A program made the translations under genes and the position numbers. Of a stretch of 64,000 nt of DNA, positions 32,519 to 61,315 are shown piece by piece. This stretch comes from Woeseiaceae bacterium (lineage in GTDB: Bacteria; Pseudomonadota; Gammaproteobacteria; Steroidobacterales; Woeseiaceae), in contig JAJFKR010000020.1 in the NCBI GenBank assembly GCA_021773095.1, positions 248,001 through 312,000 on the forward strand, given 5' to 3'. Each line of letters opens with the position of its first letter. Positions within the stretch are counted from its first letter, which is position 1. The notes under the pieces are model-generated. The model made no database searches and had not been told where the DNA came from. It saw nothing but the letters and a program-made list of their open reading frames with translations.

Positions 32519-32685
32519 CGTAGGAGCGCGCCTTGCGCGCGACCTCGTGACGATCATCGCACGCGTCGGTCGAGATACTGTTTACTGGAATGGCTCCCTT
32601 CGGTCCGCTTTATTTCCTGTAAACAGTATCTCGACCGCCGCTTATGACCCTTGTAGTGAGGTCGCGCGCAAGGCGCGCTCCTACG
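32519..32685. repeat. Composite palindrome: family A REPs around a family C hairpin
   Basis: Two perfect 28-bp inverted family A arms (32519-32546 and 32658-32685) enclose linkers and a 19-bp inverted repeat (32567-32585 and 32619-32637) belonging to family C. The whole 167 bp fills the gap between the convergent dciA and lpxC genes. A core-less relative lies at 56104-56179. Confidence 0.8.
32567..32637 (-). mobile_element. Family C hairpin element, copy 1
   Basis: Arms CGGTCGAGATACTGTTTAC and GTAAACAGTATCTCGACCG are perfect complements around a 33-base centre (32586-32618). The 51-bp core at 32577-32627 is identical to that at 61212-61262, in opposite orientation. The outer arm bases differ between copies but stay paired. 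No coding capacity; mobility is inferred. Confidence 0.6.
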
Positions 32686-32697
32686 GTGGCTCGATGG

Positions 32698-33606
32698 TTA
32701 CGCGTAGGAGGGCGTCGCGTAGGAGATGGGTGCTTTCTTTGAGTCCTTAAACGTCACTTCTTCCCAGGCTGTTGCGTCGGCCAGCATGGCCCGAAACAGT
32801 TTGTTATTCAGATCATGACCGGACTTATAGGCACGCAGTTCACCAATCAGACTGTGCCCCAAAAGATAGGCATCGCCGATGGCATCGAGAATTTTGTGAA
32901 TGACGAACTCGTTCGAATAGCGAAGGCCGTCTTCGTTAAGGATGCGGTAATCATCGAGAACGATCGCATTGTCCATGCTACCGCCCAGGGTCAGATTACG
33001 CTCTCGTAACGCTTCAACATCTCGCAGGAAACAAAAGGTACGCGCGCGACTGACTTCTTTTAGAAACGACGTCGATGAAAAGTCGATGGTCGCCTGCTGA
33101 CTGAGTTTGTTAAACACGGGGTGATTGAAATACACCTCGAAGTTCACTTTGAAACCGTTGAACGGCACAAGCTCAGCCCACTTGTCACCCTCCTCAACTC
33201 GCACGGTCTTCTTGATGCGAATGAATTTCTTCAGCGCCTTTTGTTCTTCTATACCGGCCGACTGCAGCAAAAATACAAAGGGTCCAGCACTGCCGTCCAT
33301 GATCGGAACTTCGGGGGCCGAAAGATCAATGTTCAGATTGTCGATGCCGAGACCGGCCAACGCTGACATCAGGTGCTCAACGGTCGCAACTTTGACATCG
33401 TCTTTGATGAGCGTAGTGCCGAGCATGGTCTCGCCAACGAGTTGCGGATCGGCTGGTATGTCCACCGGCTCTTCGAGATCAATTCGTCGAAACGTAATTC
33501 CGGAGTTCGCCGCCGCAGGCCGAAGAGTCATATAGACCTTCTCGCCCGAATGCAGACCAACGCCAGTGGCTCGGATCGTGGTTTTTAGAGTTCTTTGTCT
33601 GAGCAT
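32698..33606 (-). CDS. lpxC: UDP-3-O-acyl-N-acetylglucosamine deacetylase LpxC
   Basis: A 302-residue zinc amidase that commits UDP-GlcNAc to lipid A synthesis. The start at 33606 ([21 protein letters not shown]) matches the family. Zinc ligands are in [11 protein letters not shown] and in [17 protein letters not shown], with the catalytic His in [16 protein letters not shown]. It is the last gene of the dcw run, 189 bp after ftsZ; an extended -10 TGTGATAAT lies at 33627-33619. The last codons repeat the bases CGTAGGAG (on the plus strand), which also begin family A REPs, so the short tail ATPSYA may be REP-derived. Confidence 0.97.
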
Positions 33607-33682
33607 TTCGCCGCGAAGATTATCACAAAAGAAAAGCGAATCCAAAAAGGCTCAGAAATTCAAACTGTTAGAGAGAAGCCTG

Positions 33683-33753
33683 CGCCCCGGGGTCGATCAG
33701 GTAGCTGGCCCGGATGAATCCGGGCCAGCAAGCGGAGTTACCTGCCCCGGGCG
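33683..33753. repeat. Nested GC-rich palindrome between ftsZ and lpxC
   Basis: Inner perfect hairpin CTGGCCCGGAT (33705-33715), loop GA, ATCCGGGCCAG (33718-33728). Outside it CAGGTA (33698-33703) pairs with TACCTG (33739-33744), and CGCCCCGGGG (33683-33692) pairs imperfectly with CCCCGGGCG (33745-33753). No T-tract follows. It could pause or stabilise the ftsZ transcript ahead of lpxC. Confidence 0.65.
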
Positions 33754-33795
33754 GTCAGACAGCCCGGACTACACCGGCCTTAGACCATCCCTGGC

Positions 33796-34938
33796 CTAAT
33801 CAGCCTGGCGGCGCAGGAATGCCGGGATATCCAACAGCTCGTCCTGCAGACCACTAGCCTCTAGCCCGTCTCCAACTGCACGCTGACGTTGTACTGTTGG
33901 CTTATCCAGCGTTTGATAATTGGGCTCGGCCTGGGTTTCGGGGCGACGGACAATTCGCATGGGTGATTCTGCATTCGCGGCCTGCTGCCCAAGTCCTGTT
34001 GCAACCACAGTCACGCGAATTCGATCCGTCATTTCGGGATCGATTACCGTACCAATAACGACGGTCGCATCGGGTGATGCGTATTCTTTCACCGTGGTAC
34101 CCACCTCCTGGAATTCGCCGATCGACAGATCCATACCAGCCGTGACGTTTACGAGGATGCCGTTGGCCCCGGCCAGGTTGATATCTTCGAGCAATGGGCT
34201 GGAGGCAGCCGCTTCCGCCGCCTCCCGAGCGCGGTCTTCACCGGATGACGTACCCGACCCCATCATTGCCATACCCATCTCAGACATTACTGTACGGACA
34301 TCCGCGAAGTCGACGTTGATGAGACCCGGCCTCGTGATCAGTTCGGCGATACCCTGAACGGCTCCTTGAAGGACCTGGTTTGCCGAACGGAATGCATCGA
34401 GCAAGGTCGTTTCACCACCGAGTACCGTTAGCAGCTTTTCATTGGGAATAGTAATCAGTGAATCAACATACTTGCCGAGCTCACTGATGCCATGTTCCGC
34501 GATCTGCATACGCTTGGTACCTTCCATCTGGAATGGCTTGGTAACGATCGCAACAGTCAGAATGCCAAGTTCCTTGGCGACCTGGGCCACAATCGGTGCA
34601 GCACCGGTACCGGTACCACCGCCCATTCCGGCCGTGATGAACAACATGTCTGCACCCTCGATGACTTCGAGAATACGGTCACGATCTTCCATCGCCGCCT
34701 GGCGACCAATGTCCGGATCGGCGCCAGCACCGAGTCCTTTTGTAATGTTGCACCCAATCTGCAACGACGTACGTACGTGTGATCCCTTCAGCGCTTGCGA
34801 GTCGGTATTCGCACAGATGAAATCGACACCTTCGATGCCGGTATCGACCATGTGAGCAACCGCGTTGCCACCGCCACCACCCACACCGATGACCTTGATG
34901 ACAGCGTTCGAGCTGTGCGCATCCATTAATTCAAACAT
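33796..34938 (-). CDS. ftsZ: Cell division GTPase FtsZ
   Basis: The tubulin homologue (380 aa) that forms the Z-ring. GTP-binding motif GGGTGTGAAPIVAQ, an N-terminal glycine loop KVIGVGGGGGNAVAHM and T7 loop INVDFADVRTVMSEMG are present. A variable linker of about 50 residues leads to the conserved C-terminal peptide DIPAFLRRQAD, which binds FtsA, ZipA and ZapD (also encoded in this window). It follows ftsA by 42 bp and is separated from lpxC by a structured palindrome. Confidence 0.99.
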   Translation of the reverse strand: MFELMDAHSSNAVIKVIGVGGGGGNAVAHMVDTGIEGVDFICANTDSQALKGSHVRTSLQIGCNITKGLGAGADPDIGRQAAMEDRDRILEVIEGADMLFITAGMGGGTGTGAAPIVAQVAKELGILTVAIVTKPFQMEGTKRMQIAEHGISELGKYVDSLITIPNEKLLTVLGGETTLLDAFRSANQVLQGAVQGIAELITRPGLINVDFADVRTVMSEMGMAMMGSGTSSGEDRAREAAEAAASSPLLEDINLAGANGILVNVTAGMDLSIGEFQEVGTTVKEYASPDATVVIGTVIDPEMTDRIRVTVVATGLGQQAANAESPMRIVRRPETQAEPNYQTLDKPTVQRQRAVGDGLEASGLQDELLDIPAFLRRQAD

Positions 34939-34980
34939 TGAGTCTTCCTCCGCTTTGTAACTGTATTAATGCTTCTGTTA

Positions 34981-36219
34981 TTAAAATTGTCCCTGGAACC
35001 ACGACTTCATGCGGTCCCAGACTTCTCCTAAATTTCCACCGATCGGCGTACTGCGCCGATCCCGTCGCGAAAGATTTTCGAAGCCGTACAACAACAGACC
35101 CACGCCTGTGGCGTGAATCGGATTGCGTATGACATCCATCAAACCTTCTACGTAAGTCGGTGAGCCGAGTCGCACAGGCATATGAAACACCTCTTCAGCG
35201 AGTTCCACCGCACCTTCCATCTTCGCGCTGCCGCCGGTAATAATGACGCCCGCCGCGATCAACTCCTCGAAGCCGCTGCGTCGTAACTCATCGCGAACCA
35301 GGCCAAACAGTTCCTCATAGCGAGGCTCGACTATTTCGGCCAACGTCTGGCGCGCTAACCGACGAGGTGGCCTGTCACCAACGCTTGGTACCTCAATGGT
35401 TTCGTCCGGATTCGCGAGCTGCGACAGCGCGCAGGCGTACTTGATCTTGATCTCCTCGGCGTATTGCGTGGGCGTACGCATCGACACCGCAATGTCATTC
35501 GTCACCTGATCACCTGCGATGGGAATAACTGCGGTGTGCTGGATCGCGCCACCGAGAAACACGGCGATGTCCGTAGTACCACCGCCAATATCCACGATGC
35601 AGGAGCCGAGTTCCTTTTCATCGTCAGTCAAAACTGCGTAACTCGATGCCAGTTGTTCAAGAACGATATCGTCGACATCCAGCCCGCAACGCTGTACGCA
35701 TTTGACGATATTCTGTGCTGCACTTTCGGCCCCTGTCACCATGTGCACCTTCGCTTCAAGCCGCACACCGGACATTCCGATCGGCTCGCGAATACCGCCC
35801 TGATCATCGATGATGAATTCCTGCGGCAGGATGTGCAGGATTTTCTGATCGGCCGGGATCGCCACGGCTCGCGCGGCGTCAATTACGCGATCCACATCAC
35901 TACCGCTAACTTCCGAATCCCGAATGGCAACAATGCCGTGGGAGTTCAAACTGCGAACATGACTGCCGGCAATGCCGGTGTATACCGAATGGATATCGCA
36001 GCCTGCCATCAACTCGGCCTCTTCAACAGCACGCTGAATAGAATGCACAGTCGACTCGATATTTACGACGACACCCTTCTTCAATCCGCGTGATGGATGT
36101 GAACCGATACCAACGACCTCAATATCACCGCCTTCATTCACTTCACCGACGATGGCCACCACCTTCGACGTACCGATATCGAGTCCGACAATCAGATTTT
36201 TGTCAGGTCGTTTGGACAT
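34981..36219 (-). CDS. ftsA: Cell division protein FtsA
   Basis: An actin-like ATPase (412 aa) that tethers FtsZ filaments to the inner membrane. Nucleotide motifs are LIVGLDIGTSKVVAIVGE, IVDIGGGTTDIAVF and ITGGSAKMEGAVELAEEVF. The C-terminus WDRMKSWFQGQF is the membrane-targeting amphipathic helix. The start directly follows the ftsQ stop without a gap, the standard ftsQ-ftsA-ftsZ order. Confidence 0.98.
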   Translation of the reverse strand: MSKRPDKNLIVGLDIGTSKVVAIVGEVNEGGDIEVVGIGSHPSRGLKKGVVVNIESTVHSIQRAVEEAELMAGCDIHSVYTGIAGSHVRSLNSHGIVAIRDSEVSGSDVDRVIDAARAVAIPADQKILHILPQEFIIDDQGGIREPIGMSGVRLEAKVHMVTGAESAAQNIVKCVQRCGLDVDDIVLEQLASSYAVLTDDEKELGSCIVDIGGGTTDIAVFLGGAIQHTAVIPIAGDQVTNDIAVSMRTPTQYAEEIKIKYACALSQLANPDETIEVPSVGDRPPRRLARQTLAEIVEPRYEELFGLVRDELRRSGFEELIAAGVIITGGSAKMEGAVELAEEVFHMPVRLGSPTYVEGLMDVIRNPIHATGVGLLLYGFENLSRRDRRSTPIGGNLGEVWDRMKSWFQGQF

Positions 36220-37032
36220 TCACTGTGTTCCTCTTGCCGCGAGCATTTCTTTTTGCGCTCGTTCCGGATCGCTAACCGGAGTCTTCAATCCACCCTTCCA
36301 GCCAATCGTGAAACCGTTGCTATAACGCATATCGACATATTCGATATCCCCGGCCCGACCCGTTATGATGTCCGCTACGACATCCAGGAAAAGATCGGTA
36401 CGATCCGCTACCGCTCTGCGCCCGAGGCGAACTTCAATTCCGTTGCCCAATGTCATCTCCCAGGAGCCACGGGCATCGAGGTGCACACGACGAACATCCA
36501 GACCCAGCGGTATCAGTTGTTTTCTTACGGCGAGGTAGCGCATTGCGACCTCGGCGGAACTCGCATCGGGGCCACTCAGTCGCGGCAATTCTGCGGGCAC
36601 ATGCCGCAGTTTGTTGACGAACCGCTCACCACGCGTATTCAACAAACCACTGTCACCCCAAACGGCAGCCGGAACCTGCTCGGTCACTGTGATTGAAATC
36701 CTGCTTGGCCAGCGACGAGCGACACGTGCCTGATCAATCCACGGCAACGCCATAATTCGTTCCTGGATTTCGTCTATGTCGGCGCCAACGAAACCCGCTT
36801 CGATTTCTTCGCTGATCGCTGCTTCGATATGCAGTGCTGATACACGCTGGAACGGCCCGCTGATTTCAATCGACGAAATTTCACGGTCCAGCATCGTCAG
36901 GCTCAATTGATAGGTTGCGAACACAATGCCAACGGCCATCAAGGGCGCCAAAACTCTGCTGAAACGAATGCTTGGCATTTCGATCCGGTTGCTCGATTTC
37001 TGCTTGCGTCTTCTTGCTTGCTTACGTGCCAT
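36220..37032 (-). CDS. ftsQ: Cell division protein FtsQ
   Basis: A bitopic divisome protein (270 aa) that links early and late division proteins through FtsB/FtsL. A basic N-terminal tail (MARKQARRRKQKSSNR) is followed by one membrane helix at about 26-48, then a periplasmic POTRA domain starting SSIEISGPFQRVSALHIEAA and a beta domain containing WPSRISITVTEQVPAAVWG. It overlaps the ddl end by 11 bp. Confidence 0.95.
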   Translation of the reverse strand: MARKQARRRKQKSSNRIEMPSIRFSRVLAPLMAVGIVFATYQLSLTMLDREISSIEISGPFQRVSALHIEAAISEEIEAGFVGADIDEIQERIMALPWIDQARVARRWPSRISITVTEQVPAAVWGDSGLLNTRGERFVNKLRHVPAELPRLSGPDASSAEVAMRYLAVRKQLIPLGLDVRRVHLDARGSWEMTLGNGIEVRLGRRAVADRTDLFLDVVADIITGRAGDIEYVDMRYSNGFTIGWKGGLKTPVSDPERAQKEMLAARGTQ

Positions 37033-38023
37033 GAGCAGCCACCTCGACGTCAGCTTGAATTTCGTCAGCAGAAAAACTCGTTTCCAGAATTCTCCAGCAC
37101 AGTTCCTCGAAGTCGATCCCGTCTTCCAGCGCCGCGATTGGTACCAGGCTATGGCTGGTCATTCCCGGGACCGTATTCACCTCAAGCACAAGCGGCTGAC
37201 CGTCGTTTCCGGTCATGAAGTCGACTCGCCCCCAACCTGTGCAACCAAGCTCCGCAAAGGCCGCAACGGCGAGATCGGCGTATTGGCGCTCTTCCTCATC
37301 ATTCGCAGTTCCTTTGCAGATGTACTCGGTACGATCAGATTCATACTTCGCGCGATAATCGTAAAAAACCCGCGGCGTGACTATTCGAATACTCGGTAAC
37401 GCCTGTCCCTGCAGGACCGCCACCGTAAACTCATCTCCGTTGATGCAGCGCTCCAGTAACACGGTGTCGCCGTACTGCATGGCCACGTCGATCGCTGCGT
37501 TAAGCTCCGCTCGCTCGAACACTTTTGACATTCCAACACTTGAACCCTGGCCTGGCGGTTTAACGACTAACGGAAAGCCAATCTGCTCTGCAGCAACGGA
37601 GGCTTCGGCCTGCGACTCCGCAACCGCGTATTCGGGTGTCGGTATACCAGCCGCACGAAACAGATGCTTACTACGAACCTTATCCATCGCGATTGCTGAT
37701 GCCATAACACCGCTACCGGTATAAGGCACGTTCAGCCACTGCAATGCTCCTTGCAGTGCGCCGTCTTCACCGCCCGGGCCGTGCAACGCGATCCAGACCC
37801 GGTCAAACCCTGCTGTTGCGAAGTCGCTCATTGACTGACCCGATGGATCCCACGCATGTGCGTCTACACCTCTTGACTGCAATGCCCTTAGCACGGCCGT
37901 GCCGGTATCGAGTGACACTTCACGCTCACTGGAATTACCGCCGAGCATTACAGCGACGTGACCGAAGGCGGACGCGTCACTGACTGTGTACCGTTGATCG
38001 AGTGTAACCGTCGCGTCGCTCAT
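37022..38023 (-). CDS. ddl: D-alanine--D-alanine ligase
   Basis: An ATP-grasp ligase (333 aa) that makes the D-Ala-D-Ala dipeptide used by MurF. Conserved segments are VAVMLGGNSSEREVSLDTG, LHGPGGEDGALQGALQWL, FPLVVKPPGQGSSVGMSKV and GWGRVDFMTGNDGQPLVLEVNTVPGMTSHS (the last written here as two parts: GWGRVDFM and LVLEVNTVPGMTSHS). The specificity-loop tyrosine used for D-Ala is present in VFYDYRAKYESDRTEY. It is ddlB-type by position, between murB and ftsQ, and overlaps murB by 1 bp. Confidence 0.97.
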   Translation of the reverse strand: MSDATVTLDQRYTVSDASAFGHVAVMLGGNSSEREVSLDTGTAVLRALQSRGVDAHAWDPSGQSMSDFATAGFDRVWIALHGPGGEDGALQGALQWLNVPYTGSGVMASAIAMDKVRSKHLFRAAGIPTPEYAVAESQAEASVAAEQIGFPLVVKPPGQGSSVGMSKVFERAELNAAIDVAMQYGDTVLLERCINGDEFTVAVLQGQALPSIRIVTPRVFYDYRAKYESDRTEYICKGTANDEEERQYADLAVAAFAELGCTGWGRVDFMTGNDGQPLVLEVNTVPGMTSHSLVPIAALEDGIDFEELCWRILETSFSADEIQADVEVAAHGT

Positions 38024-38919
38024 TATTTTGCTACCCCGACAATGCGAACTTCGTGCACCAGACTCACGCCGTGCACATCGAGAATCGTCTGACGAACATA
38101 CTCAATCAGCTCTTCAATATCGGTTGCCGAAGCGCCGTCGCGATTGATGATGAAGTTCGCGTGTTTCTCAGAAACTTCTGCACCGCCAATTCGGTGACCT
38201 TTCATTCCGGCCGCCTCGATTAGACGAGCAGAGTGGTCACCCTCCGGATTCCTGAAAACCGATCCGCAACTCGGCAACCCGATAGGTTGCGTAGTCTTGC
38301 GGCGCAAGAGCATGCTGTTCAATACTTCAAGGCTCGGGATGACATCCTGTTCAAAACGAAAGCCTGCACCGAGGAACCATTCATTGGCCGGACCTTTCAC
38401 GCTACGATAGCCGACGTTGTATTCGCCCGGCGCACGCTCGTGGATCTCTCCATTGCGATCGATCGATCGTACTGATTCGACCCGCTCCCAGGTTTCACCA
38501 CCGTGAGCACCCGCGTTCATAGCCAGGGCACCACCGACGGACCCCGGTATACCCGCAAAGAATTCTGATGGCCCGAGTTCCCATCGCAAGCACTGGCGTG
38601 CCAGTTGTGTGCACGGCAGGCCGGCGCCCGCGCGAACCAGATATCGATCTACACGCTCGATGCTGCGCAGGATTTTTGTTGCGGATACAACGACACCGGA
38701 TATGCCGCCGTCACGGACTAACAGGTTACTGCCAACGCCGTGCCAGAATATTGGAGTATCGGTGTCGAGGTCGGCAAGAAACGCGGCCAAATCTTCTACG
38801 CTCGCGGGCACGAAAAATAATTCAGCCGGGCCACCGGTACGCCACGACGTGTGACGACTCATGGGCTCTTCGTAACGCAGTTCGCCCTGCACAGTCAGCT
38901 CTCTCGCAGCGGCCATCAC
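38023..38919 (-). CDS. murB: UDP-N-acetylenolpyruvoylglucosamine reductase MurB
   Basis: A FAD enzyme (298 aa) that reduces UDP-GlcNAc-enolpyruvate to UDP-MurNAc with NADPH. Motifs: [17 protein letters not shown], the FAD-binding [39 protein letters not shown], and [11 protein letters not shown] carrying the catalytic serine. The size and absence of the tyrosine-loop insertion indicate the short type II MurB. murC-murB-ddl clustering is common outside the Enterobacterales. Confidence 0.97.
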
Positions 38920-40352
38920 TTATGCACCCTCAATACCGGGCCGTCGCTGATCAATTCCGGCAACCCCGCAGCGTACGCGCCGATATCGCCGGCACCCATG
39001 GTCAATACCAAATCACCGTCTTGCAGCAGGTCCATAAGCACCGGCTGTAACGTGTCCAGAGATTCAACGAACACGGGTTCGACTGAACCGCGCGTCCGCA
39101 CCGCCCGCGCCATCGCCCGGCCATCAGCGCCAGCTATGGGCTCTTCACCTGCTGCATACACATCCAGCAATACAAGAACATCGGCATCAGACAACACAGT
39201 TGCGAAGTCGTCCATTAAATCGCGGCTGCGCGTGTATCGGTGTGGTTGAAATATCAGCACGACGCGCTTGTCCGGCCAGCCGCCTTTCGCAGCCGATAAT
39301 GTCGCTGCTATTTCTGTCGGATGGTGCCCATAGTCATCGACCAGCATTACAGTTCCGGCCGTGGTCTTGACTTCACCCATTTTTTGAAAGCGGCGGTCTA
39401 TACCTTCGAATTCCTTAAGCGCCTTTACGACGGTGTCGTTGCCAATCTGCAGCTCATCGGCGACGGTGATTGCCGCCAGTGCATTGCGTACGTTGTGCAT
39501 GCCCGGCAGGCCGAGTGTTACGTGCATGACCGGGGACGCCGTTCCCTTGTCCCCCTTTCGCACCACGTCAAACTCTGTATGCCCTTCGGAAAACGCGATG
39601 TTGATTGCGCGCACATCGGCATCATCGTTCGCTCCATACGTTGTAATCGAACGTCCGATGTCACCCAGCACATCGTTCACACCGGGATCGTCACCGCATA
39701 CAACCGCAAGACCGTAGAATGGCAAATTATGCAGAAACTCGATGAAACCGCTCTTTAACTTCTCGATGTCGCCGTCATAGGTCGACATGTGGTCCGCATC
39801 GATGTTGGTCACGACCGCGAGCATTGGCTTGAGATGTACAAACGATGCGTCGCTCTCATCGGCCTCGGCAACCAGGTAGTCGCCTTGTCCCAGCCGGGCG
39901 TTTGCATCGGCACTCTTGAGGCGACCGCCAATGACAAACGTTGGGTCGAGACCGCCCTCGGCGAGGACGCTCGCGATCAGGCTCGTAGTTGTCGTTTTGC
40001 CGTGTGTACCAGCAACAGCAATCGAATATCGGAAGCGCATCAACTCTGCCAGCATTTCGGCACGACTGACAACAGGCATCAACTGCTCTCTGGCAGCTGC
40101 AACCTCAGGGTTGCTTTCGTCGACCGCACTGGAAACGACGACGGCGTCCGCATCGCGGATATTTTCCGCAGCGTGGCCGATGAAAACGGTCGCACCCTGT
40201 TTTTCAAGGCGGTTTGTTTGTTTATTTCGCTTCAGGTCGGAGCCCTGCACTGCATAACCGAGGCTCAACATGACCTCCGCAATACCCGACATGCCCGAGC
40301 CGCCGATACCCACGAAGTGCACTGAGTTGATTCGGCGCATGCGCTTGATCAC
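38916..40352 (-). CDS. murC: UDP-N-acetylmuramate--L-alanine ligase MurC
   Basis: A Mur ligase (478 aa) that adds L-Ala to UDP-MurNAc. The N-terminal Rossmann segment [20 protein letters not shown] binds UDP-MurNAc. The ATP loop is [17 protein letters not shown]. Further central and C-terminal motifs are [29 protein letters not shown] and [17 protein letters not shown]. It overlaps murB and murG by 4 bp at either end. Confidence 0.98.
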
Positions 40353-50866: not shown

Positions 50867-50881
50867 GCCAGGATCTGCTCC

Positions 50882-51331: not shown

Positions 51332-51384
51332 GGTGGTTCGGACTTGCCGGGGATCGCTCTTCTGGCGCGATATCCGGGCTGTAC

Positions 51385-51409: not shown

Positions 51410-51418
51410 CTTTTCAAC

Positions 51419-51447: not shown

Positions 51448-51698
51448 CAACGCTGCTTGATTAGTTGTTGTTGTACAGGGACTTAGAGGCGATCTGGTGG
51501 CCCAAAAAGGGCGAAAAGTGGCAGGAATCGCGCTAATGAAATCAGTGAGTTATAACTGCTTTCTCGATATGACCTCAAAATCGAGTCGGAAAACGGCGAC
51601 AGGTGGTCATCTGGTTAAATTCCGCATCGATTTGCGCAAAGACATCCGGCACGGCCGTTGCTCATTATAACTCGCTGTTTTGAAAGGAATTGGTGGGT
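51448..51698. other. Spacer between mraZ promoter and rnpB
   Basis: With 51332-51447 this makes 367 bp without a coding gene. The only further signal is a minus-strand TATAAT at 51669-51664, just past the rnpB 3' end, without a clear -35. No hairpin with a T-tract for rnpB was found, and no small ORF with a credible ribosome-binding site. Confidence 0.4.
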
Positions 51699-52065: not shown

Positions 52066-52072
52066 ACCGGCA

Positions 52073-52101
52073 ATTCTAGCGAGTTAAGGTGACAGTGACC
52101 A
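52073..52101 (-). promoter_or_regulatory. Probable rnpB promoter
   Basis: Minus strand TAGAAT (52078-52073) would start transcription at about 52066, exactly at the rnpB 5' end. The -35 at 17 bp spacing is TGGTCA (52101-52096), which is part of a family B repeat arm. Confidence 0.6.
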
Positions 52102-52268
52102 TAACTCAGCAAAAAGGAGTTAAGGTGACAGTGACCTTATCTCTGGCACACGGCCGTCGAGCGAGACCCTGTTTCCGGTATGGGCGCGCTTCGCGGCGCT
52201 TTATTTCCTTTAAACTGTGTCCCGCTCGACGACCTCTAGGCTTAGTTATGGTCACTGTCACCTTAACT
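52081..52268. repeat. Family B repeats around a diverged family C hairpin
   Basis: Two direct family B units (52081-52107 and 52117-52143) and one inverted unit (52243-52268), each with GGTGACAGTGACC or its complement. The inner direct and the inverted units enclose family C copy 3 (52156-52230). The right unit contains the rsmI TGA stop (52258-52260); the left unit overlaps the rnpB -35. Confidence 0.75.
52156..52230 (-). mobile_element. Family C hairpin element, copy 3 (diverged)
   Basis: Outer arms GTCGAGCGAGAC (52156-52167) and GTCCCGCTCGAC (52219-52230) pair over 12 bp with one G-U. The centre shares GCTTTATTTCCT and CTGTTT/AAACTGT with copies 1 and 2 but has decayed elsewhere. The orientation is as in copy 1. 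Confidence 0.5.
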
Positions 52269-53094
52269 GCTTCAGTTCAAGCAATCTTTCATACAGAGCA
52301 TTGCGCTTCAGCCCGGTTGCATCAGCCGCGACCTTTGCCGCATCCTTCGCGGCCAGGTGCGATGACAGGGCCGTCAGGAGCCGGTCAACTTCCAATGGGG
52401 ATTCGTGCTGAGCGGTTGATCCTGCTACGACGACGACAAACTCGCCTTTACTGACTAGCGCCCCGCTTTCAAGCCGGCTTTGCAATTCGGACAGCGAATC
52501 CTGAACGCATTGCTCATGCATTTTGGTCAGCTCGCGGCCGATGAATGCCTGCCGATCAGACCCGAACGCCGCTGCCATGTCGGCGATACAGCCAGAGATT
52601 CGGTGCACCGACTCATAGAAAACCATAGTCCTGGATTCAGCGGCCAAGTCCGCCAGCACCTCCCTTCTCGCAGCCTGTTTGGACGGCAGGAACCCTTCAA
52701 AGCAAAATCGGTCTGTTGCGATTCCGGCCGACGAAAGCGCTGCAGTAACTGCGCTGGAAGCGGGGATTGGCGAAACGTCGATGCTGTTGGCATGGGCTTC
52801 TCTTACCAGTCGAAACCCAGGATCACTGACCAATGGCGTTCCGGCATCACTCACCAACGCCACATCGTTGCCATCTTTTAGTGATCTAATAATGCCGTGC
52901 ACAACTTTTTCTTCGTTATGATCGTGTAGCGCCATAAGTCGTGTTTTGCAGCCGATATGAATTAGCAATCGCCCGGTGTGCCGGGTATCCTCAGCTGCAA
53001 TGAGACTCACCTCGGCAAGCGTCTGGCGTGCTCGCGGTGTCAGGTCTTCAAGATTGCCTATCGGCGTTGCAACAACGAAAAGTGTGCCGCTCAT
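52258..53094 (-). CDS. rsmI: 16S rRNA (cytidine-1402-2'-O)-methyltransferase RsmI
   Basis: A tetrapyrrole-methylase-fold enzyme (278 aa) that methylates the ribose of C1402 in 16S rRNA, the same nucleotide modified by RsmH. Motifs: GTLFVVATPIGNLEDLTPRA, AAEDTRHTGRLL, ALVSDAGTPLVSDPGFRLV and PIPASSAVTAALSSAGI. It is divergent from lpoA, the standard arrangement. The last codons (QLR, TGA) lie in a family B repeat, so the C-terminus has been partly formed by the repeat. Confidence 0.97.
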   Translation of the reverse strand: MSGTLFVVATPIGNLEDLTPRARQTLAEVSLIAAEDTRHTGRLLIHIGCKTRLMALHDHNEEKVVHGIIRSLKDGNDVALVSDAGTPLVSDPGFRLVREAHANSIDVSPIPASSAVTAALSSAGIATDRFCFEGFLPSKQAARREVLADLAAESRTMVFYESVHRISGCIADMAAAFGSDRQAFIGRELTKMHEQCVQDSLSELQSRLESGALVSKGEFVVVVAGSTAQHESPLEVDRLLTALSSHLAAKDAAKVAADATGLKRNALYERLLELKQLR

Positions 53095-53141
53095 CTGGCT
53101 TTGGGTCCTTTTTCAGAATGACAATTTGACGAAACGACTAT

Positions 53142-55090
53142 ATGACGAATCCGCGCTTATATCCTGCAGGTAAATCGCGCTCACTGGCAAGCATTGTCGT
53201 ATTGCTCGCTACGTTGCTGGCCATCAGTTCGTGCGCAACGACTGGATTAGGCGGCTTATCCGGCTCGGCAGAGAAACGCGCCGAACGTCTGGCAAGAGAT
53301 GGCCAACACCAGGAAGCAGCAGGCGCTTACATTGGTCTGGCAACCAATGCTGTCGAATCCGAACGCGATCGCCTGACATTGCTGGCCGTTGAGCAATGGC
53401 TGGACGCCGGTGACGTAAGCCGTGCTCGCCGCGGTCTCGCCAGTATGCAGATGCCGGGTACGGGGTCATTGCTTGCGATCTGGCATACCAATACCGCGGC
53501 ACTTTCTCTTTACCGCGGCGACGCTGATGCTGCACTGCAGATACTGGAACCTCTGAGCAGACGGTCGCTGAGTTTGCGTGACCGTCTTCGAGTCGAGGCA
53601 TTGCGTGCCGATTCGTGGATCCAAAAGCAGGACCCCACCCGCGCCGTAGAATTAATGAAACAGCGCGAGAGCTGGTTAGGCAGCTCAAGAGAAATAGAAC
53701 GGAACCGAAACCGACTGTGGCAGGGGCTGTTGTTCAGCAATCCACAGGTGCTGCGTAAAGCCGCTCAAATAACGACCGACGATCAAACGCGCGGCTGGCT
53801 TACATTAGGATCACTGGCGACATCGACCGGGCAACAGGGTATCGGCTGGAGCAACGGAATATTTCGCTGGCGCGAAGCAAATCCCGGGCACCCCGCTCTC
53901 ATCGTGATCGGAGAGGCTGAAACATTTGATAGTGAATTGCTCAATTACCCGCGGAAGATCGCTCTGCTGTTGCCGCTTACGGGTCGATCTGCCGCAGCAG
54001 GCAAAGCAATTCAAAACGGATTTCTGGGCGCCTACTTCGCCACGGCGAGCGCGCTTGACGATCGACAGGCCGTCCGGATTTACGACGTAAACTCTGCGGG
54101 CGGTGCCAGTGCAGCCTATCAAAACGCAGTCACCGACGGTGCCGAATTCGTCGTCGGCCCGCTGTTGAAAAATAACGTTACCGAACTCGCTAACGACATT
54201 TTAGTCCCGGTTCCGGTGTTAACGCTTAACTATCTTCCAGACGGCACGCTGGCACCTCCAGGCTTGTACCAGTTCGCACTGGCACCGGAAGATGAGGCGG
54301 CATCCGCCGCGAGACGTGCATTGGGTGACGGTTACACGCGAGCTGTCGCGCTGGTACCCAACAATGACTGGGGTCGACGCGTATTGCGAAGCTTCGCAAC
54401 AGAGTTCGAAGGTCTGGGCGGCTTGCTGCTTGACTACAGAAATTACACACCTGACGAACAGGATTTCTCCAACGAGATCGAAATCCTGATGGGTCTGAGC
54501 GGCAGTGCCCAGCGATACAGACGATTGAAAGCCAACATTGGCGGCCTTCTGCAGTTCGATCCGCGGCGTCGGCAGGATGCGGAGTTTATCTTTCTGGCAG
54601 CCGCCGCGGGTCCAGGACGATTGCTCAAGTCGCAACTGAAATTTCATTACTCGGGTGATTTACCCGCGTATTCGACGTCGTCTGTTAATTCTCTGGACGG
54701 CCGCTCGAATTCCGATCTCAACGGAATCATGTTTGCTGACACACCGTGGTTAGTCGATCCGCAGCCCTGGATTCGTTATCTGCCACAAACCTACTCGGAG
54801 TATTGGCCCGAAGAGCGTCGCCTGAGTCGCCTGCACGCGATGGGTTATGACGCCTACAATCTCATTGCCTCGTTGTATGCTTATCGCGGTGGCGAGATGA
54901 CCGAACTGAATGGCGCGACTGGCGAGTTATTCCTAGATCAAAAAGGTCGCGTTCACCGACGCCTGGCCTGGGCTCAATTTCAACGTGGAGAGGCCGTCGC
55001 GTTGCCAGCACAGGAAGAACTGGGTGGCCCAATCCGGGACATCAGCGATGAAAACGAACAGCTTGCACCGGATGCAGTGGATGACCCACC

Positions 55091-55118
<28 letters not shown>
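53142..55118 (+). CDS. lpoA: Penicillin-binding protein activator LpoA (LppC/YraM)
   Basis: An outer-membrane lipoprotein (658 aa) that activates PBP1A from outside the peptidoglycan layer. The signal peptide SIVVLLATLLAISSC ends in a lipobox with Cys31. The N-terminal half is TPR-like (about 45-260). The C-terminal half is a periplasmic-binding-protein-like domain (KIALLLPLTGRSAAAGKAIQ, EFVVGPLLKNNVTELA, ALVPNNDWGRRVLRSF, MGYDAYNLIASLYAY). It is divergent from rsmI and overlaps yraN by 28 bp. Confidence 0.94.
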
Positions 55119-56176
<1,058 letters not shown>

Positions 56177-56179
<3 letters not shown>

Positions 56180-56584
56180 TTTGACGATCGTCAGGTGTGG
56201 ACGTGAGCGAGTTTCTTCGATATCGGTCGATAATTCAGGTGGCTCGATGTGATCGGCCGTCTCCGCATCGTGCGAAAAGATCATGCCCTGACCGGTTTCG
56301 CGAGCGTATATGCCCAGAATTGATTGCATCGGCACCCATACGTCGAACGGCACACCGCTAAAGCGAGCGCGAAAACTGACGCCGTCGTTGGTCAGTTTCA
56401 GATTGTGTGCGGCCGATTCACTGATATTCAGGATGATCTTGCCATCCTTTACATGTTCCATCGGCACGCTGACACCATCGACTGACGTATCCACGACAAT
56501 GTGAGGAGTATGCGAGTTATCCGCCATCCATTCATGCATGGCGCGGATCAGGTACGGACGTTTTGAGCGGCTGCGTTGTGTCAC
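56177..56584 (-). CDS. sspB: ClpXP specificity-enhancing factor SspB
   Basis: A 135-residue adaptor that delivers ssrA-tagged proteins to ClpXP. The N-terminal substrate-binding domain (KRPYLIRAMHEWMADNSHTP, GKIILNISESAAHNLKL, FDVWVPMQSILGIYARETGQ) is followed by an acidic linker. The C-terminal RPHLTIVK matches the XB peptide that docks on ClpX. It lies 90 bp after sspA in the usual sspA-sspB order. The TAG stop abuts the family A REP. Confidence 0.95.
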
Positions 56585-56674
56585 AAGTCTTGTTCTTTTA
56601 CTGAGCCGGAGGACGTTAGCTTACCACCAATTTGACCGCCCGCTTCAAACTTAACTTAAGACAGAGGACCGAAA

Positions 56675-57304
56675 CTAAAGACGCATCTCTTGTTCCAGCT
56701 CTGTAAGGCTCTGTTGAAACGACCGCCGAGCAAACACCCGATCCATATAGTCCTCAATCGCCTCAGCATCCTTACCAAGATCGATCCCGTACACCGGCAA
56801 ACGCCAAAGCAACGGCGCTATCGTGCAGTCCACCAGCGAAAACTCATCACTCAGAAAATAGGTCCGGGCGCCAAACAGCTCCGTGCTCTGCAGAATGCTC
56901 TCGCGCAACATCTTGCGGGCCTTCGTGCCCAGTTTGCCGTCTACGCTGGTTTCGGCCTCTGCTGCGATCGAGTACCAATCCGTCTCGATCCGAAACAGCG
57001 CCAGGCGAAATTGCGCTCGTGTCACCGGGTCAACGGGCATCAATGGTGGGTGTGGAAATCTTTCGTCGAGGTATTCGATGATCACTCGTGAATCGTATAA
57101 GGTCAGATCGCGGTCCACGAGCGTTGGAACCGTGTGGTACGGATTGAGATCCATCAGGTCCTCGGGCAAGTCCGGGCCCGCAACATTGGAGATTTCTATA
57201 TTGATGTTTTTCTCGGCGAGTACCAGCCGAGTGCGATGACTGTGAATATCCGTCGGTCGCGAAAATAGCGTCATTACTGAGCGCCTGTTGGCTACTACTG
57301 CCAT
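56675..57304 (-). CDS. sspA: Stringent starvation protein A (SspA)
   Basis: A 209-residue RNA-polymerase-associated protein with a glutathione-transferase fold but no expected transferase activity. The start at 57304 (MAVVANRRSVMTLFSRPTDI) matches E. coli SspA; the longer frame runs into petC. Thioredoxin-like domain: NPYHTVPTLVDRDLTLYDSR; helical domain: FLSDEFSLVDCTIAPLLWRL. Its ATG overlaps the petC TGA by one base, so it is coupled to the bc1 operon. Confidence 0.96.
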   Translation of the reverse strand: MAVVANRRSVMTLFSRPTDIHSHRTRLVLAEKNINIEISNVAGPDLPEDLMDLNPYHTVPTLVDRDLTLYDSRVIIEYLDERFPHPPLMPVDPVTRAQFRLALFRIETDWYSIAAEAETSVDGKLGTKARKMLRESILQSTELFGARTYFLSDEFSLVDCTIAPLLWRLPVYGIDLGKDAEAIEDYMDRVFARRSFQQSLTELEQEMRL

Positions 57305-58068
57305 CACTTTACGTCCTTCCAAATCTGTTTTTTGAGCATCCGCGCGATGATCAGGAAAAATATGAGATAGATCATCACCCATTTACCAAGGTTCATGCGA
57401 AAGCCGCGAATGGGCTCCGCCATGTAAGCGAGAAAATTAACGGTGTCGCGTACGAATTCATCGTAGTCCTCGGAATCCAGACTGCCTGGCGTTACCTGCT
57501 CAAACCCTTCAAACGTCGTCGTCACCGATCCGTCTTCGTTTTGATGCTCGGTAAAATGAGCCGTTTGGTAACCCTGCAGCTCCCACAGTACGTGCGGCAT
57601 ACTGGTCCCCGCCAATACCAGATTGTCTACGCCGGTTGGGCTGTCTGCATCGACATAAAATCCCTTCAGAAAATTATAGACGTGGTCCGCACCTTTGGCG
57701 CGCGCAATGAGCGACATGTCTGGCGGCGCCGTGCCATACCAGCGCGCCGCGTCGTCTGCGGGCATCGATGCCTGAATGGTCTCGAACGTCTTGTCAGCAT
57801 TGAACATCAGGTTATCGACGAGCATTTCCTCAGATAAATCGAGGTCTTTGCCTATTGTTTTGTAACGGACATATTGTGCTGAGTGACAACCGGAACAGTA
57901 ATTCATGAAGTTCGCCGCGCCACGCTGTAATGACTTGATGTTGTCCGGGTCAATATTGGCTGATGCCAGGTCTGCGCCACCACCGGAGGCAAGAACCTGC
58001 GCTGTCATGAAATACAGGCTAACCATCATGAGACCGGCTAATCGATACAATTTAGTCATGGTAGACAA
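57304..58068 (-). CDS. petC: Ubiquinol-cytochrome c reductase cytochrome c1
   Basis: The c-type haem subunit (254 aa) of the bc1 complex. A cleavable signal peptide (about 1-27) precedes the haem site CSGCH (Cys58, Cys61, His62) in FMNYCSGCHSAQYVRYK. The axial methionine is probably in LAGTSMPHVLWELQG. A C-terminal helix (VMIYLIFFLIIARMLKKQIW) anchors it to the inner membrane with the haem domain in the periplasm. It overlaps petB by 17 bp. Confidence 0.96.
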   Translation of the reverse strand: MSTMTKLYRLAGLMMVSLYFMTAQVLASGGGADLASANIDPDNIKSLQRGAANFMNYCSGCHSAQYVRYKTIGKDLDLSEEMLVDNLMFNADKTFETIQASMPADDAARWYGTAPPDMSLIARAKGADHVYNFLKGFYVDADSPTGVDNLVLAGTSMPHVLWELQGYQTAHFTEHQNEDGSVTTTFEGFEQVTPGSLDSEDYDEFVRDTVNFLAYMAEPIRGFRMNLGKWVMIYLIFFLIIARMLKKQIWKDVK

Positions 58069-59302
58069 CCCTCTCTGGAACGGGCTTCGTCTTGTCGATG
58101 GTCGTGTAGTACGGCATCAACAGGAAAAACGCGAAGTAGAACACTGAGAAAATTCTCGCGATCATTACGTAAAGGGGTTCGGCGGGCATTGTTCCGAGCT
58201 TGCCGAGCACGAAAAATGTGATGACGAACAGCGTCAGCGCAGACTTGTAAATCCAGCCGCGGTAGCGAATGGACTTCACTCGCGCGCGATCCAGCCAGGG
58301 CAGGAATAGCGGTAACATGACCGATAGTCCAAACAGTATGAATCCCCACAGTTTGTCAGGGACTGCTCGCAGAATTGCGTAGAACGGCGTGAAATACCAC
58401 ACCGGCGCAATGTGCTCCGGTGTCGCGGTCATATTCGCGGGCTCAAAGTTCGCGTGTTCCAGGAAGTAGCCACCCATATCAGGCGCGAAAAACACAACGC
58501 CACAGAAGATCATCAGGAATATAATAATCGCGACCAGATCCTTACTCGTGTGGTATGGATGAAAGGCAACACCGTCCAGCGGTACACCGTCCGGACCCTT
58601 GTTTTTCTTGATCTCAATGCCATCCGGATTGTTCGACCCGACCTCATGCAATGCCACGATGTGAACAAAGATCAGACCGATCAATGCCAGCGGCAACGCT
58701 ATGACGTGCAAGGCGAAGAAGCGATTAAGCGTGATGTCCGATATTGAGTAATCGCCACGAATAATTTCGACCAACGCATCACCGACCCAAGGAATCGCTC
58801 CAAATAGCGAGATGATCACCTGTGCACCCCAATAGGACATCTGTCCCCAGGGCAGCAAATAACCAGCGAACGCTTCTGCCATCAACACCAGGAATATCAG
58901 CATGCCGATGATCCAGATCAACTCCCGCGGCTTCTTGTACGAGCCATAAAGCATTGCCCGGAACATGTGCAGATAAACGACGATAAAGAAGAATGACGCC
59001 CCCGTTGAGTGCATGTAGCGAATCAACCAGCCCCATTCCACATCACGCATGATGTACTCAACTGACGCGAAGGCTTCCGCCGCGGCCGGTTTGTAATTCA
59101 TCGTCAGGAATATGCCGGTGAATAGCTGGATGAAGAGAACGACGAATGCCAGTACGCCAAAAACGTACCAAACGTTGAAGTTCTTGGAGGCATAGTATTC
59201 AGTCGCGTGATACTTCATCGTTTCCGTAAACGGGAAACGATCGTCGATCCATCTCATGAATCCGCCTTTCGGCTTGCCCACTTCTGCTTCGATTCTCGCC
59301 AT
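58052..59302 (-). CDS. petB: Ubiquinol-cytochrome c reductase cytochrome b
   Basis: The eight-helix di-haem subunit (416 aa) carrying both quinone sites. Haem ligands are His98/His112 and His199/His214, with the expected spacings. The Qo-site motif that is PEWY in mitochondria and alphaproteobacteria reads PVWY here (residues 300-303, EHIAPVWYFTPFYAI). It overlaps petA by 1 bp and petC by 17 bp. Confidence 0.98.
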   Translation of the reverse strand: MARIEAEVGKPKGGFMRWIDDRFPFTETMKYHATEYYASKNFNVWYVFGVLAFVVLFIQLFTGIFLTMNYKPAAAEAFASVEYIMRDVEWGWLIRYMHSTGASFFFIVVYLHMFRAMLYGSYKKPRELIWIIGMLIFLVLMAEAFAGYLLPWGQMSYWGAQVIISLFGAIPWVGDALVEIIRGDYSISDITLNRFFALHVIALPLALIGLIFVHIVALHEVGSNNPDGIEIKKNKGPDGVPLDGVAFHPYHTSKDLVAIIIFLMIFCGVVFFAPDMGGYFLEHANFEPANMTATPEHIAPVWYFTPFYAILRAVPDKLWGFILFGLSVMLPLFLPWLDRARVKSIRYRGWIYKSALTLFVITFFVLGKLGTMPAEPLYVMIARIFSVFYFAFFLLMPYYTTIDKTKPVPERVVYHD

Positions 59303-59889
59303 TACGCTGCTCCCGTATCCTGGCCGATCAATATCAGGTCATCCCTGACAAATCGGTGCGGTGGAACCCGCAAGTTGGTTGGCGCAGGCACACCTTTATG
59401 GACGCGACCGGCCAGATCGAATCTGGATCCGTGACAGGGGCAAAAGAATCCACCGCCCCAGCCTTCGGCCGGCCGGACGTCGAAATCCTCAAGTGGTGCG
59501 CAACCCAGGTGCGTGCACGAACCTTCAACGATCAGATATTCGCGTCTGACCGAACGAGTGTCATTGGCAGCATATTCGGGCTGCTGTTCAATCACTGCTG
59601 AATCCGGATCCCTCAGCACGTCCAGATTCTCATCAAGCCTTGAGAGCATCTCCTCAGAGCGCCGCAACACGAACACAAGCCTGCCACGCCACAATACGCG
59701 AATCATCTCGCCGGGCTGAATGGAGCCTATGGGCACCTCGACCGGGGCACCGAGAGCCTGCGCACGAGCACTCGGCTTTAGCGATGATAGGAAAGGAACA
59801 GCAACCAGACCCGCGCCGGCGGCGCCGGTGACAGCAGTTGCTACACTAAGAAAATGACGCCTGTTGCGATCAAGGTCGTCTTCGGTCAT
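59302..59889 (-). CDS. petA: Rieske iron-sulfur subunit of cytochrome bc1
   Basis: A 195-residue [2Fe-2S] protein that takes electrons from ubiquinol and passes them to cytochrome c1. The N-terminus RNRRHFLSVATAVTGAAGAG is a twin-arginine type signal-anchor. Cluster ligands are in CTHLGC (Cys125, His127) and CPCHGS (Cys150, His153), with the disulfide cysteines 130 and 152. It is the first gene of petA-petB-petC-sspA-sspB. Confidence 0.98.
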   Translation of the reverse strand: MTEDDLDRNRRHFLSVATAVTGAAGAGLVAVPFLSSLKPSARAQALGAPVEVPIGSIQPGEMIRVLWRGRLVFVLRRSEEMLSRLDENLDVLRDPDSAVIEQQPEYAANDTRSVRREYLIVEGSCTHLGCAPLEDFDVRPAEGWGGGFFCPCHGSRFDLAGRVHKGVPAPTNLRVPPHRFVRDDLILIGQDTGAA

Positions 59890-60032
59890 CAGGCACTCCC
59901 ATACGCCGTTCTATTGACGGCCTTAAATTTACAGCGCTTTGTTGCTGAATATCGATACTGGTAGATTTGCAGCAGGCCCGGTTTGCCGTCAGGATGACGT
60001 TGGCCCCGAGCCTCGATGCGGAACCACGGCGC

Positions 60033-60038
60033 ATTATA
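60033..60038 (-). promoter_or_regulatory. Candidate -10 element of the petABC operon
   Basis: Minus strand TATAAT in the 213-bp divergent region between petA and the DegS-type protease gene, which would give a leader of about 135 bases. No good -35 was found. On the other strand TATACT (60068-60073) is a possible -10 for the protease. Confidence 0.35.
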
Positions 60039-60102
60039 CACGGGGCCGATTGAAATTGGCTAGCCACTATACTAAGTCTGAGGAAGGTTACAGGAACATC
60101 GC

Positions 60103-61173
60103 TTGGCCAGATTGAAGTCAGCAGTTGTATTTCTTTTGCAGTCGATCGTCGTCGGTCTGGCGATTGCGTTTATTGTCGTGCTTTTCCGTCCGGACCTGAT
60201 GCCCGGTGTGGCAATTGACGATAAACCTGCCAGTTTTGCCGATGCTGTCGATCTGAGTTCCGCCTCCGTTGCCAATATCTATACTAAACGCCTGGTTCAG
60301 GACACCGGAGCCGGTGAGTCACAGGCCAAATTTCGGGTTGAAACCAGTTTTGCCTCGGCGGTCATTATCGATTCGGCCGGCTATTTGGTTACGAATTACC
60401 ACGTCGTTGCGACGGCCGCCGAGATACGAGTACAACTGAGCGATGGCCGCATTACGGATCCGGTGACCGTCGGTGTCGATGCTGAAACGGACCTGGCCCT
60501 ACTCAAAGTTGAGCTTGGAGATCTCCCGGCCATCCGCATAGGCAGATCCGACAATCTGCGTATCGGCGATGTGGTACTGGCGATTGGGAATCCCTACGGA
60601 CTAACAACGTCCGTCACCCAGGGAATAGTCAGCGCCACAGGACGCGGCCTGCTCAATCTCGTCACATTCGAGAACTTTATCCAGACTGACGCCGCGATAA
60701 ATGCTGGTAATTCGGGCGGCGCACTGATTAATAGTCTCGGCGAACTCGTTGGCATCAATACGGCTGTCCTCGCGCAGGAGCCTGGCACCGAAGGTATCGG
60801 TTTCGCAATCCCTGTTGACCTCGTGCGCGGCGTTATCGATCAAATCAAACGAAATGGCCGTGTAGTCCGCGGCTACATGGGGCTCCTGCCCAACGATCTG
60901 ACAAATTCAGAGCGTCTTGCCATGGGCATTGAAAGTGGCAACGGTATCCTGCTTACGGATGTCTACGATAATGGGCCGGCGGCCGCTGCTGATTTACGCA
61001 TTGGCGATGTCATTCTCGAATTAAATGGCGAACCGGTCTATTCGCAACGTCAGGCACTGCTAATCTCTGCAAGCACGAGCCCCGGCGACACGGTCGACGT
61101 CGTCGGACTCCGCGATGGTGAACGATTCACCACAACCGTTACGGCCACTGAACGCCCGGATGATCCCCGATAA
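60103..61173 (+). CDS. degS: DegS/AlgW-type periplasmic serine protease
   Basis: A 356-residue HtrA-family protease with an N-terminal membrane anchor (about 6-28) and one PDZ domain, the layout of DegS/AlgW, which senses misfolded outer-membrane proteins and cuts the anti-sigma factor RseA/MucA. Catalytic residues are His100 (NYHVVATA), Asp130 (DAETDLALLKVE) and Ser204 (NAGNSGGALI). The PDZ domain occupies about 250-345. The start is TTG with AGGAA upstream. The last 16 coding bases recur as an inverted copy at 61295-61315, around family C copy 2. Confidence 0.9.
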   Translation: MARLKSAVVFLLQSIVVGLAIAFIVVLFRPDLMPGVAIDDKPASFADAVDLSSASVANIYTKRLVQDTGAGESQAKFRVETSFASAVIIDSAGYLVTNYHVVATAAEIRVQLSDGRITDPVTVGVDAETDLALLKVELGDLPAIRIGRSDNLRIGDVVLAIGNPYGLTTSVTQGIVSATGRGLLNLVTFENFIQTDAAINAGNSGGALINSLGELVGINTAVLAQEPGTEGIGFAIPVDLVRGVIDQIKRNGRVVRGYMGLLPNDLTNSERLAMGIESGNGILLTDVYDNGPAAAADLRIGDVILELNGEPVYSQRQALLISASTSPGDTVDVVGLRDGERFTTTVTATERPDDPR

Positions 61174-61315
61174 TTAACACCGACAATCTTCGCAAGGTCG
61201 CCGACCCGGAGACTGTTTACAGGAAATAAAGCGGACCGAAGGGAGCCATTCCAGTAAACAGTCTCCGGGTCGGCGGCCCTGTGCCGCACTAAATGTTAAT
61301 TATCGGGGATGATCC
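61158..61315. repeat. Outer palindrome formed from the degS 3' end
   Basis: Bases 61158-61178 (the last 16 bases of degS, including its stop, plus five) recur inverted at 61295-61315 with one mismatch in 21. Between them is family C copy 2. The right copy serves no coding function, so it looks like an inverted duplication of the gene end. Confidence 0.75.
61198..61276 (+). mobile_element. Family C hairpin element, copy 2
   Basis: A perfect inverted repeat of 22 bp (61199-61220 and 61254-61275), extended by a wobble pair, around a 33-base centre. The 51-bp core 61212-61262 is identical to copy 1 in the reverse direction. The outer arms (CCGACCCGGAG/CTCCGGGTCGG) are unrelated to those of copies 1 and 3 but pair fully. 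Confidence 0.6.

Follow-up and report, generated by a model that had tools for sequence, protein, structure and literature searches.

Hairpins in the window

This report concerns a family of hairpins found in the window, a stretch of 64,000 nucleotides (nt) of Woeseiaceae bacterium (assembly GCA_021773095.1, contig JAJFKR010000020.1, positions 248,001 to 312,000, forward strand). The bacterium belongs to an abundant, little studied sediment lineage. The hairpins are about 90 nt long and carry a conserved tip on a stem of 20-35 base pairs (bp), in which the letters are free and the pairing is kept. Three copies lie in the window.

32567..32637, minus strand: hairpin copy 1, with the conserved 31-nt tip at 32587-32617 on the minus strand (covariance-model score 83.2 bits, 32569-32635)
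61193..61281, plus strand: hairpin copy 2, with 33-nt arms and the tip at 61222-61252 on the plus strand (model score 83.6 bits)
52156..52230, minus strand: hairpin copy 3, with tip and stem diverged (model score 33.8 bits, 52160-52226)

The original prediction, made from the letters of the window, was that copies 1 and 2 share an identical core. Direct reading finds the same 51 nt at 32577-32627 and as the reverse complement of 61212-61262. These 51 nt are not one conserved block, however; the family shares only the inner 31 nt and the outer part is stem. The predicted pairing of the arms in every window copy was borne out by direct reading and by an inverted-repeat search. The search gave arms of 74 nt with 84% complementarity for copy 1 (32517-32590/32614-32687), 33 nt with 91% for copy 2 (61193-61225/61249-61281), and 61 nt with 77% for copy 3 (52114-52174/52212-52272). 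RNA folding z-scores for the plus and minus strands are -8.1/-7.4, -9.9/-8.0, and -2.2/-4.6 for copies 1, 2, and 3, respectively. The length of the identity and the fold z-scores exclude chance for copies 1 and 2. The third copy is real but decayed, and lies directly 3' of an rsmI-like gene (52258-53094, minus strand). The arms had also been described as unrelated. Their sequences do differ among copies, but at inherited sites they are recognisably homologous and altered by paired substitutions.

A conserved tip on a covarying stem

On the folding strand the 31-nt tip reads about GGRAATAAAGCG-S-A-S-C-GNA-G-S-GA-GCCATYCC. Its parts are an internal loop, a short GC helix, a G/A loop, and a C-GNA-G triloop with a variable middle base. 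The 103 non-redundant copies, found by the tip pattern with at most two substitutions, do not vary at positions A4, A8, G10-C11-G12, C16, A19, G22, and G24-C25. Most copies in the collection were found in this way (with three substitutions allowed at rpsJ and lpxC and four at hemE), so the conservation of the tip is partly built in. Named RNA modules that resemble the tip were considered and dropped.

The stems contrast with the tip in sequence. The 186 distinct copies have 147 different left 12-mers, and their mean stem score is 22.3 of 30 versus 5.0 with mispaired arms, with one copy scoring below 8. The arm covariation test was made on an alignment (A1) of 64 copies, chosen from the 103 non-redundant copies among the 186: 81 of the 103 pair at 14 or more of the 18 stem positions, and 17 of the 81 were omitted by hand. 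A1 is thus enriched for good stems. Covariation in A1 is 0.889 versus 0.184 when shuffled, and 581 cells are changed on both sides versus 153 in shuffled and 104-133 in slid alignments. Over the whole structure 96.5% of cells are paired versus 61.0% shuffled, and RNAalifold, unaided, returned the same 26 pairs. Covariation extends into the tip, where pair 33/39 is C-G in 48, G-C in 15, and G-U in 1 of the 64 copies; pairs 19/49 to 21/47 covary likewise. Among the unselected 103 copies, each of 25 positions shows Watson-Crick pairing in 68-88% of cases.

The mismatches that remain indicate which strand folds. Counted were isolated mismatches inside stems with both neighbours paired, read on the AAATAAAGCG strand. 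There are 57 G·T versus 18 A·C mismatches (p = 7e-6). Purine-purine mismatches number 59 (G·G 28, G·A 17, A·G 9, A·A 5) and pyrimidine-pyrimidine mismatches 8 (T·C 3, T·T 2, C·T 2, C·C 1). By hairpin, G·T exceeds A·C in 33, A·C exceeds G·T in 7, and the two are equal in 63. This asymmetry is unexpected for a cruciform of double-stranded DNA, which argues that the AAATAAAGCG strand folds by itself, either as RNA or as single-stranded DNA (ssDNA).

Several variants of the tip were observed. An extra or longer apical part stands between the conserved loop halves at L172, L040, L381, L387, and L395 and on contig C23 of genome G000 (L009/L010). Genome G284 has a longer apical stem, mostly GGCC-GAA-GGCC, and retains the flanking loop sequences, the same loop halves; in its copies (L316, L320, L324, L326, L329, L332) the outer repeat flanks are mostly shared and the inner stems differ by copy and still pair. 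A sister tip, about GACATAAAGCGAGCGCAGCGAGACAGTC, occurs on similar stems at L330, L333, and L242. The copies L069:1251 and L077:1394 have intact tips and arms of two different types, which could reflect recombination at the tip (or misassembly).

Hairpins at inherited sites

Two sites recur across species, one past rpsJ (Pfam S10) and the other between hemE (Pfam URO-D) and a convergent small gene. Hairpins are carried by 13 of 30 fetched rpsJ loci, with hairpin 1 in one orientation (11/11) and hairpin 2 in the other (10/10). Mean identity over the 13 loci is 0.905 in the tip, 0.837 in the coding flank, 0.81 in the non-coding flank, and 0.705 in the arms. The tip is more identical than the flank in 74 of 78 pairs (73 for the non-coding flank alone and 71 for the coding flank alone), and the arms are less identical than the flank in 72. 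Searching the 30 rpsJ gaps by stem only gave 19 stems of at least 20 bp, of which 15 have the tip, three an extended tip, and one a shortened loop (counted from the list). Substitutions at the fixed positions of the rpsJ tips are absent in 13 of 18, and number one in two tips, two in one, and three in two. The stem-only search and the few substitutions answer the ascertainment introduced by the tip pattern.

The orthologous rpsJ hairpins 2 (alignment A3, 10 of 11 hairpins, one identical row omitted) have a covariation of 0.433 versus 0.204 shuffled and at most 0.110 slid, and 33 cells changed on both sides versus 12.0 shuffled and 2-7 slid. For the rpsJ hairpins 1 (A2, 15 of 18, omitting two identical rows and one with a shifted register) the covariation is 0.288 versus 0.145 shuffled and at most 0.174 slid, and the pair types are not above the shuffles (20 vs 22.7). 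The structure of A2 is the majority register, so that rows in the other register count as partly unpaired (81.1% of cells paired).

At hemE, 7 of 30 fetched loci carry the hairpin. The tip is more identical than the flank in 11 of the 14 pairs scored (of 15 pairs of six loci), and mean identity is 0.858 in the tip, 0.754 in the arms, and 0.754 in the flank. The tip is favoured at both sites and faster arms are found at rpsJ only: the hemE recount weakens the claim about the arms and the rpsJ recount strengthens that about the tip. In G002, G014, and G008 the hairpin makes up nearly the whole 87-91-nt gap between convergent genes.

Distribution among genomes

The search of the full genome for further copies, as had been proposed, found nine exact cores in the window genome (3.41 Mb, 42 contigs). 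Two altered copies add to these, the diverged one at 52 kb and one on contig C23 whose tip is interrupted by a long insert. The core pattern is matched with at most two mismatches in 23 of 60 genomes drawn as relatives (own genome included), and the cores number 54 in G038 and 30 in G005. A covariance model built from 64 copies was used for genome scans; within the order it matched 40 of 196 genomes, which represent 12 of 60 genera. Contigs from one genome per species contain at least 113 stretches with the pattern. Among the 113 listed, 10 are in one metagenome-assembled genome (MAG) labelled Rhodospirillales, a label that may be wrong, and the other 103 are labelled Woeseiaceae, Woeseia, or unclassified Gammaproteobacteria or Proteobacteria.

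Outside the order, six convincing copies were found in G284, a gammaproteobacterium of another family with a 1.5-Mb genome. Five of 274 genomes drawn from the class match (own, one of the genus, G284, and two weak single matches in G321 and G495), as do five of 398 drawn from the phylum (own, G284, and three weak single matches in G514, G578, and G863). The far matches score 28-43 bits, one in each genome, and all are hairpins on reading. Those of G495, G514, G578, and G863 have something like the 3' half of the tip (CGAAG-S-GAGCC) and that of G321 the 5' half; the covariance model favours such partial likeness to the tip, and these single hairpins of other gammaproteobacteria (L317, L318, L364, L365, L366) may be distant kin or chance matches. 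Plasmid and phage collections held no match to an 86-nt query, and viral contigs held no exact match to the pattern.

Placement relative to genes

Genes were called by a home-made hexamer method. The 138 hairpin groups placed are 66 between convergent genes, 48 between codirectional genes, 5 between divergent genes, 18 at contig edges, and 1 overlapping a gene. For comparison with the 119 groups between genes (66/48/5), all gaps 60-500 nt long were counted in the contig loci, with or without a hairpin: 73 are convergent, 131 codirectional, and 67 divergent. An earlier, cruder count gave 51 convergent, 21 codirectional, and 6 divergent of 78. Neighbouring hairpins face outward in 32 of 48 cases, and 30 of these are 103-185 bp apart (counted from the list), a spacing near 140 bp being typical.

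Outer repeats, carriers, and spread

The window copies are surrounded by further repeats.

32520..32543, plus strand: REP1, a repetitive extragenic palindrome (REP) of the GTAG type, left half of the REPIN (REP doublet forming hairpins) around copy 1
32661..32684, minus strand: REP1 (GTAG-type REP), right half of the same REPIN
52083..52100, plus strand: REP3-type repeat GTTAAGGTGACAGTGACC
52119..52136, plus strand: REP3-type repeat, second copy
52250..52267, minus strand: REP3-type repeat, inverted, right of hairpin copy 3
61158..61179, plus strand: left arm of an outer inverted repeat of 22 nt, formed by the 3' end of the trypsin/PDZ (DegS-like) gene at 60103-61173
61294..61315, minus strand: inverted copy of the DegS-like gene end, right arm of the outer inverted repeat

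All three window copies lie within a further inverted repeat of larger span. At a length of 12 nt, such outer repeats flank 6 of 101 copies, three of them the window's, versus 1.64 on average and 5 at most when the flanks are mispaired; the outer repeat is mostly a trait of the window genome. The idea that the arms are copied from host flanks was prompted by the outer repeat of copy 2 and was dropped, such repeats being uncommon among the 101 copies. The 3' end of the DegS-like gene recurs, inverted, 114 bp downstream, and the two enclose hairpin copy 2 (61158-61315). In G069, G016, and G008 about 1.3 kb separates the DegS-like gene from a bolA-like gene. The copy 2 site has an outward pair in G014 and no hairpin in G069, G016, and G008. 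These last three genomes also have no counterpart of copy 3 in the matching gap. A peptidase M23 gene of the window (30966-31910) has a c-di-GMP-I-GGC riboswitch aptamer upstream, at 32029-32112 on the minus strand (Rfam score 69.4 bits).

Within the window genome the hairpins ride in REP-type carriers. Past lpxC (identified by Pfam) the order is REP1-hairpin-REP1, which places copy 1 inside a GTAG-type REPIN. The core is missing from the 360 nt downstream of lpxC in 28 of 29 other fetched loci (some with other neighbours there), and L254 has a decayed match. Of the original prediction, a dispersed non-coding repeat with true arm covariation is supported, as is some spread as a non-autonomous passenger, copy 1 lying in a REPIN. 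REP1 has 69 forward and 82 reverse copies in the window genome at up to two mismatches, many of them as inverted pairs. By eye, the short REPINs resemble the long REPIN minus the hairpin, and the boundary between long and short forms suggests loss of the hairpin rather than gain. REP1 REPINs of genome G000 (L266-L285) fall into several length classes, some enclosing REP3-type repeats (L272, L273). Copy 3 and another copy about 7 kb beyond the window each lie between REP3 repeats. At the site C12:318962 the unit is missing in three of five fetched relatives, the three with alignable flanks. As to an origin as a MITE or an element derived from an insertion sequence, the hairpins have no fixed ends, and at the empty sites past lpxC and at C12:318962 the flanks are too diverged to read a target-site duplication. 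Two-hairpin units have related linkers (L070 vs L071 reversed, by eye).

Placement of the hairpins in the REP class proper, where the original prediction spoke of a MITE-like or REP-like element, is not supported: they have no GTAG or CGTC foot, and it is the tip and not the stem that is conserved. In the outer flanks GTAG occurs in 22 of 206 and CGTC in 29 of 206, and 58 other 4-mers outrank CGTC and more outrank GTAG. The search for a partner transposase linked none. For the REP-associated tyrosine transposase (RAYT), the core was in none of 30 fetched PF01797 loci, up to 1.5 kb on each side. As a mobiliser RAYT was rejected: G038, with 54 cores, and G005, with 30, have one PF01797 match each, so copy number does not track, and G001, G008, G010, G012, G019, G022, and G025 have cores without a PF01797 match (drafts incomplete). 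REP3-type repeats also adjoin PF01797 genes in L206, L204, and, diverged, L209. An open reading frame between the L064 hairpins was considered as a transposase and dropped; it is membrane-protein-like by eye, no search having been made.

Interpretation

The reading that we favour, with confidence somewhat short of even, is that of a folded single strand, most likely RNA, which stands at gene 3' ends and is read at its tip. On this view selection maintains the hairpin as RNA (or ssDNA) at the 3' ends of genes, and the family spreads as a passenger besides. A host factor would recognise the tip, and the hairpin may protect transcript 3' ends or block read-through between convergent genes. New copies would arise as two-hairpin units and, in the window genome, also as REPIN passengers. 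The original prediction left open whether the structure is maintained or the arms are regenerated by copying. We lean to a maintained single-strand structure because of the strand-asymmetric mismatches and the conservation of the tip at inherited sites; templated copying may still add to this, and templated repair of one arm from the other may help the stems to stay perfect. A wider claim, which we regard as doubtful, is that the hairpins form a host-selected, tip-read class with replaceable stems that marks many gene 3' boundaries across the order, with one protein reading the tip genome-wide.

Several observations weigh against selection of a hairpin at gene 3' ends. The hairpin is dispensable, though kept where present: of the 196 genomes of the order, 156 gave no covariance-model match, and at hemE 7 of 30 loci carry it, its place being taken by a gap of 7 nt in three genomes 1.4-1.5 Mb in size. 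The orientation of the hemE core is not fixed, both being seen and the L113 core being inverted, and the hemE arms are less identical than the flank in just 7 of 14 pairs, so that they are not less conserved than the flanks. Decayed tips are under-counted, most copies having been found through the tip; G067, for example, has a decayed hairpin downstream of rpsJ (by eye). Where the neighbouring genes are codirectional, 21 cases have the folding strand antisense and 8 have it sense (p = 0.024, rpsJ counted once). This bias is weak (16:8 without G284, p = 0.15), yet it counts here because a plain element of the 3' untranslated region would not predict antisense. Averaged over the 103 copies, there is no T-rich (on the left, A-rich) stretch past the arms to 80 nt on either side.

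A less probable explanation, unlikely in our judgement, is a selfish REP-like ssDNA element, in which the tip would be the recognition site of a nuclease or transposase, the stem need only fold, and the sites at gene ends would be harmless insertions. Copies and expansions are lineage-specific, the sites past lpxC (28 of 29) and at C12:318962 (3 of 5 relatives, those alignable) are empty, and the related linkers of two-hairpin units fit such an element, as does the similar placement of REPs in other genomes described in the available part of PMC3733652. However, the 30 fetched PF01797 loci contain no core, and no defined end, target-site duplication, or partner enzyme was found. Moreover, the tip outlasts the flanks at inherited sites (74 of 78 and 11 of 14 pairs), which is unexpected for dormant copies.

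Mutational bookkeeping, in which template switching between the arms preserves complementarity without structural selection, is improbable as the whole explanation. Template switching can create and maintain perfect stems, according to the portion of PMC8794818 at hand. The hairpins 1 of L129 and L146 differ by a cluster of paired changes; their flanks are 88-94% identical and the two are contigs of one MAG, perhaps of mixed strains. Spacer inversion would also give the varying core orientation of hemE orthologs. What this process leaves unexplained is the conservation of the unpaired tip, the covarying tip pair, and the tolerance of mismatches on one strand.

More improbable still is a small RNA gene, with each hairpin transcribed alone and outward pairs transcribed from promoters in the linker. 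The outward orientation of 32 of 48 neighbouring pairs and a folding strand that is often antisense to the nearby gene would suit it, but many copies are single and the linkers, read by eye with no promoter scan run, contain no consistent promoter-like sequence. The last explanation, very improbable, is an ordinary bidirectional intrinsic terminator. Neither flank of the 103 non-redundant copies has a T-rich stretch, and this lack of a T-tract goes far to refute it; nor are intrinsic terminators known to need a conserved tip. In its favour, the hairpin nearly fills the convergent gaps of G002, G014, and G008, and terminator stems evolve by compensation (PMC5381666, available part).

The usual verdict on dispersed palindromes of bacteria is that they are selfish or no more than terminators. 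This hairpin can be traced at inherited sites, so that selection on the tip and on pairing is measurable against spread. The family offers a clean test of how stems stay paired during turnover of their letters, and it points to a candidate tip-binding factor in the window lineage.

Comparison with known systems

The available part of the literature searched did not describe the present hairpin family. Rfam has no family at gathering score at the window hairpins, and 14 loci searched at E up to 5 gave sub-gathering matches only, mostly to microRNA families and one viral intronic RNA. In the accessible parts of PMC3116915 and PMC3733652, REPs and REPINs are extragenic, palindromic, dispersed, often in inverted pairs, and predicted to fold as single strands. 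The hairpins are likewise extragenic past gene ends and in inverted pairs. REPs in other genomes lie mainly between convergent or codirectional genes, as these hairpins do (PMC3733652, same portion). The hairpins differ in that they conserve the tip, vary the stem, and have no GTAG/CGTC foot, and the true REP-type repeats (REP1, REP3) exist separately and flank some of them.

Intrinsic terminators, as treated in the portion of PMC5381666 available, share the 3'-end location and the compensatory evolution of the stem, but the hairpins have no T-tract, a conserved tip, and a very long stem. The double-hairpin elements of Allomyces mitochondria (available part of PMC7218506) are similar as mobile paired hairpins; they belong to a fungal organelle, and the comparison is by description only. 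With the structured RNAs of Rfam 15 the hairpins share conserved loop residues, covarying stems, and strand-asymmetric mismatches. The features by which structured non-coding RNAs are generally recognised, covarying helices, a conserved loop, and tolerance of G·U on one strand, are all found here. The hairpin family is classed among extragenic palindromic or structured-RNA elements.

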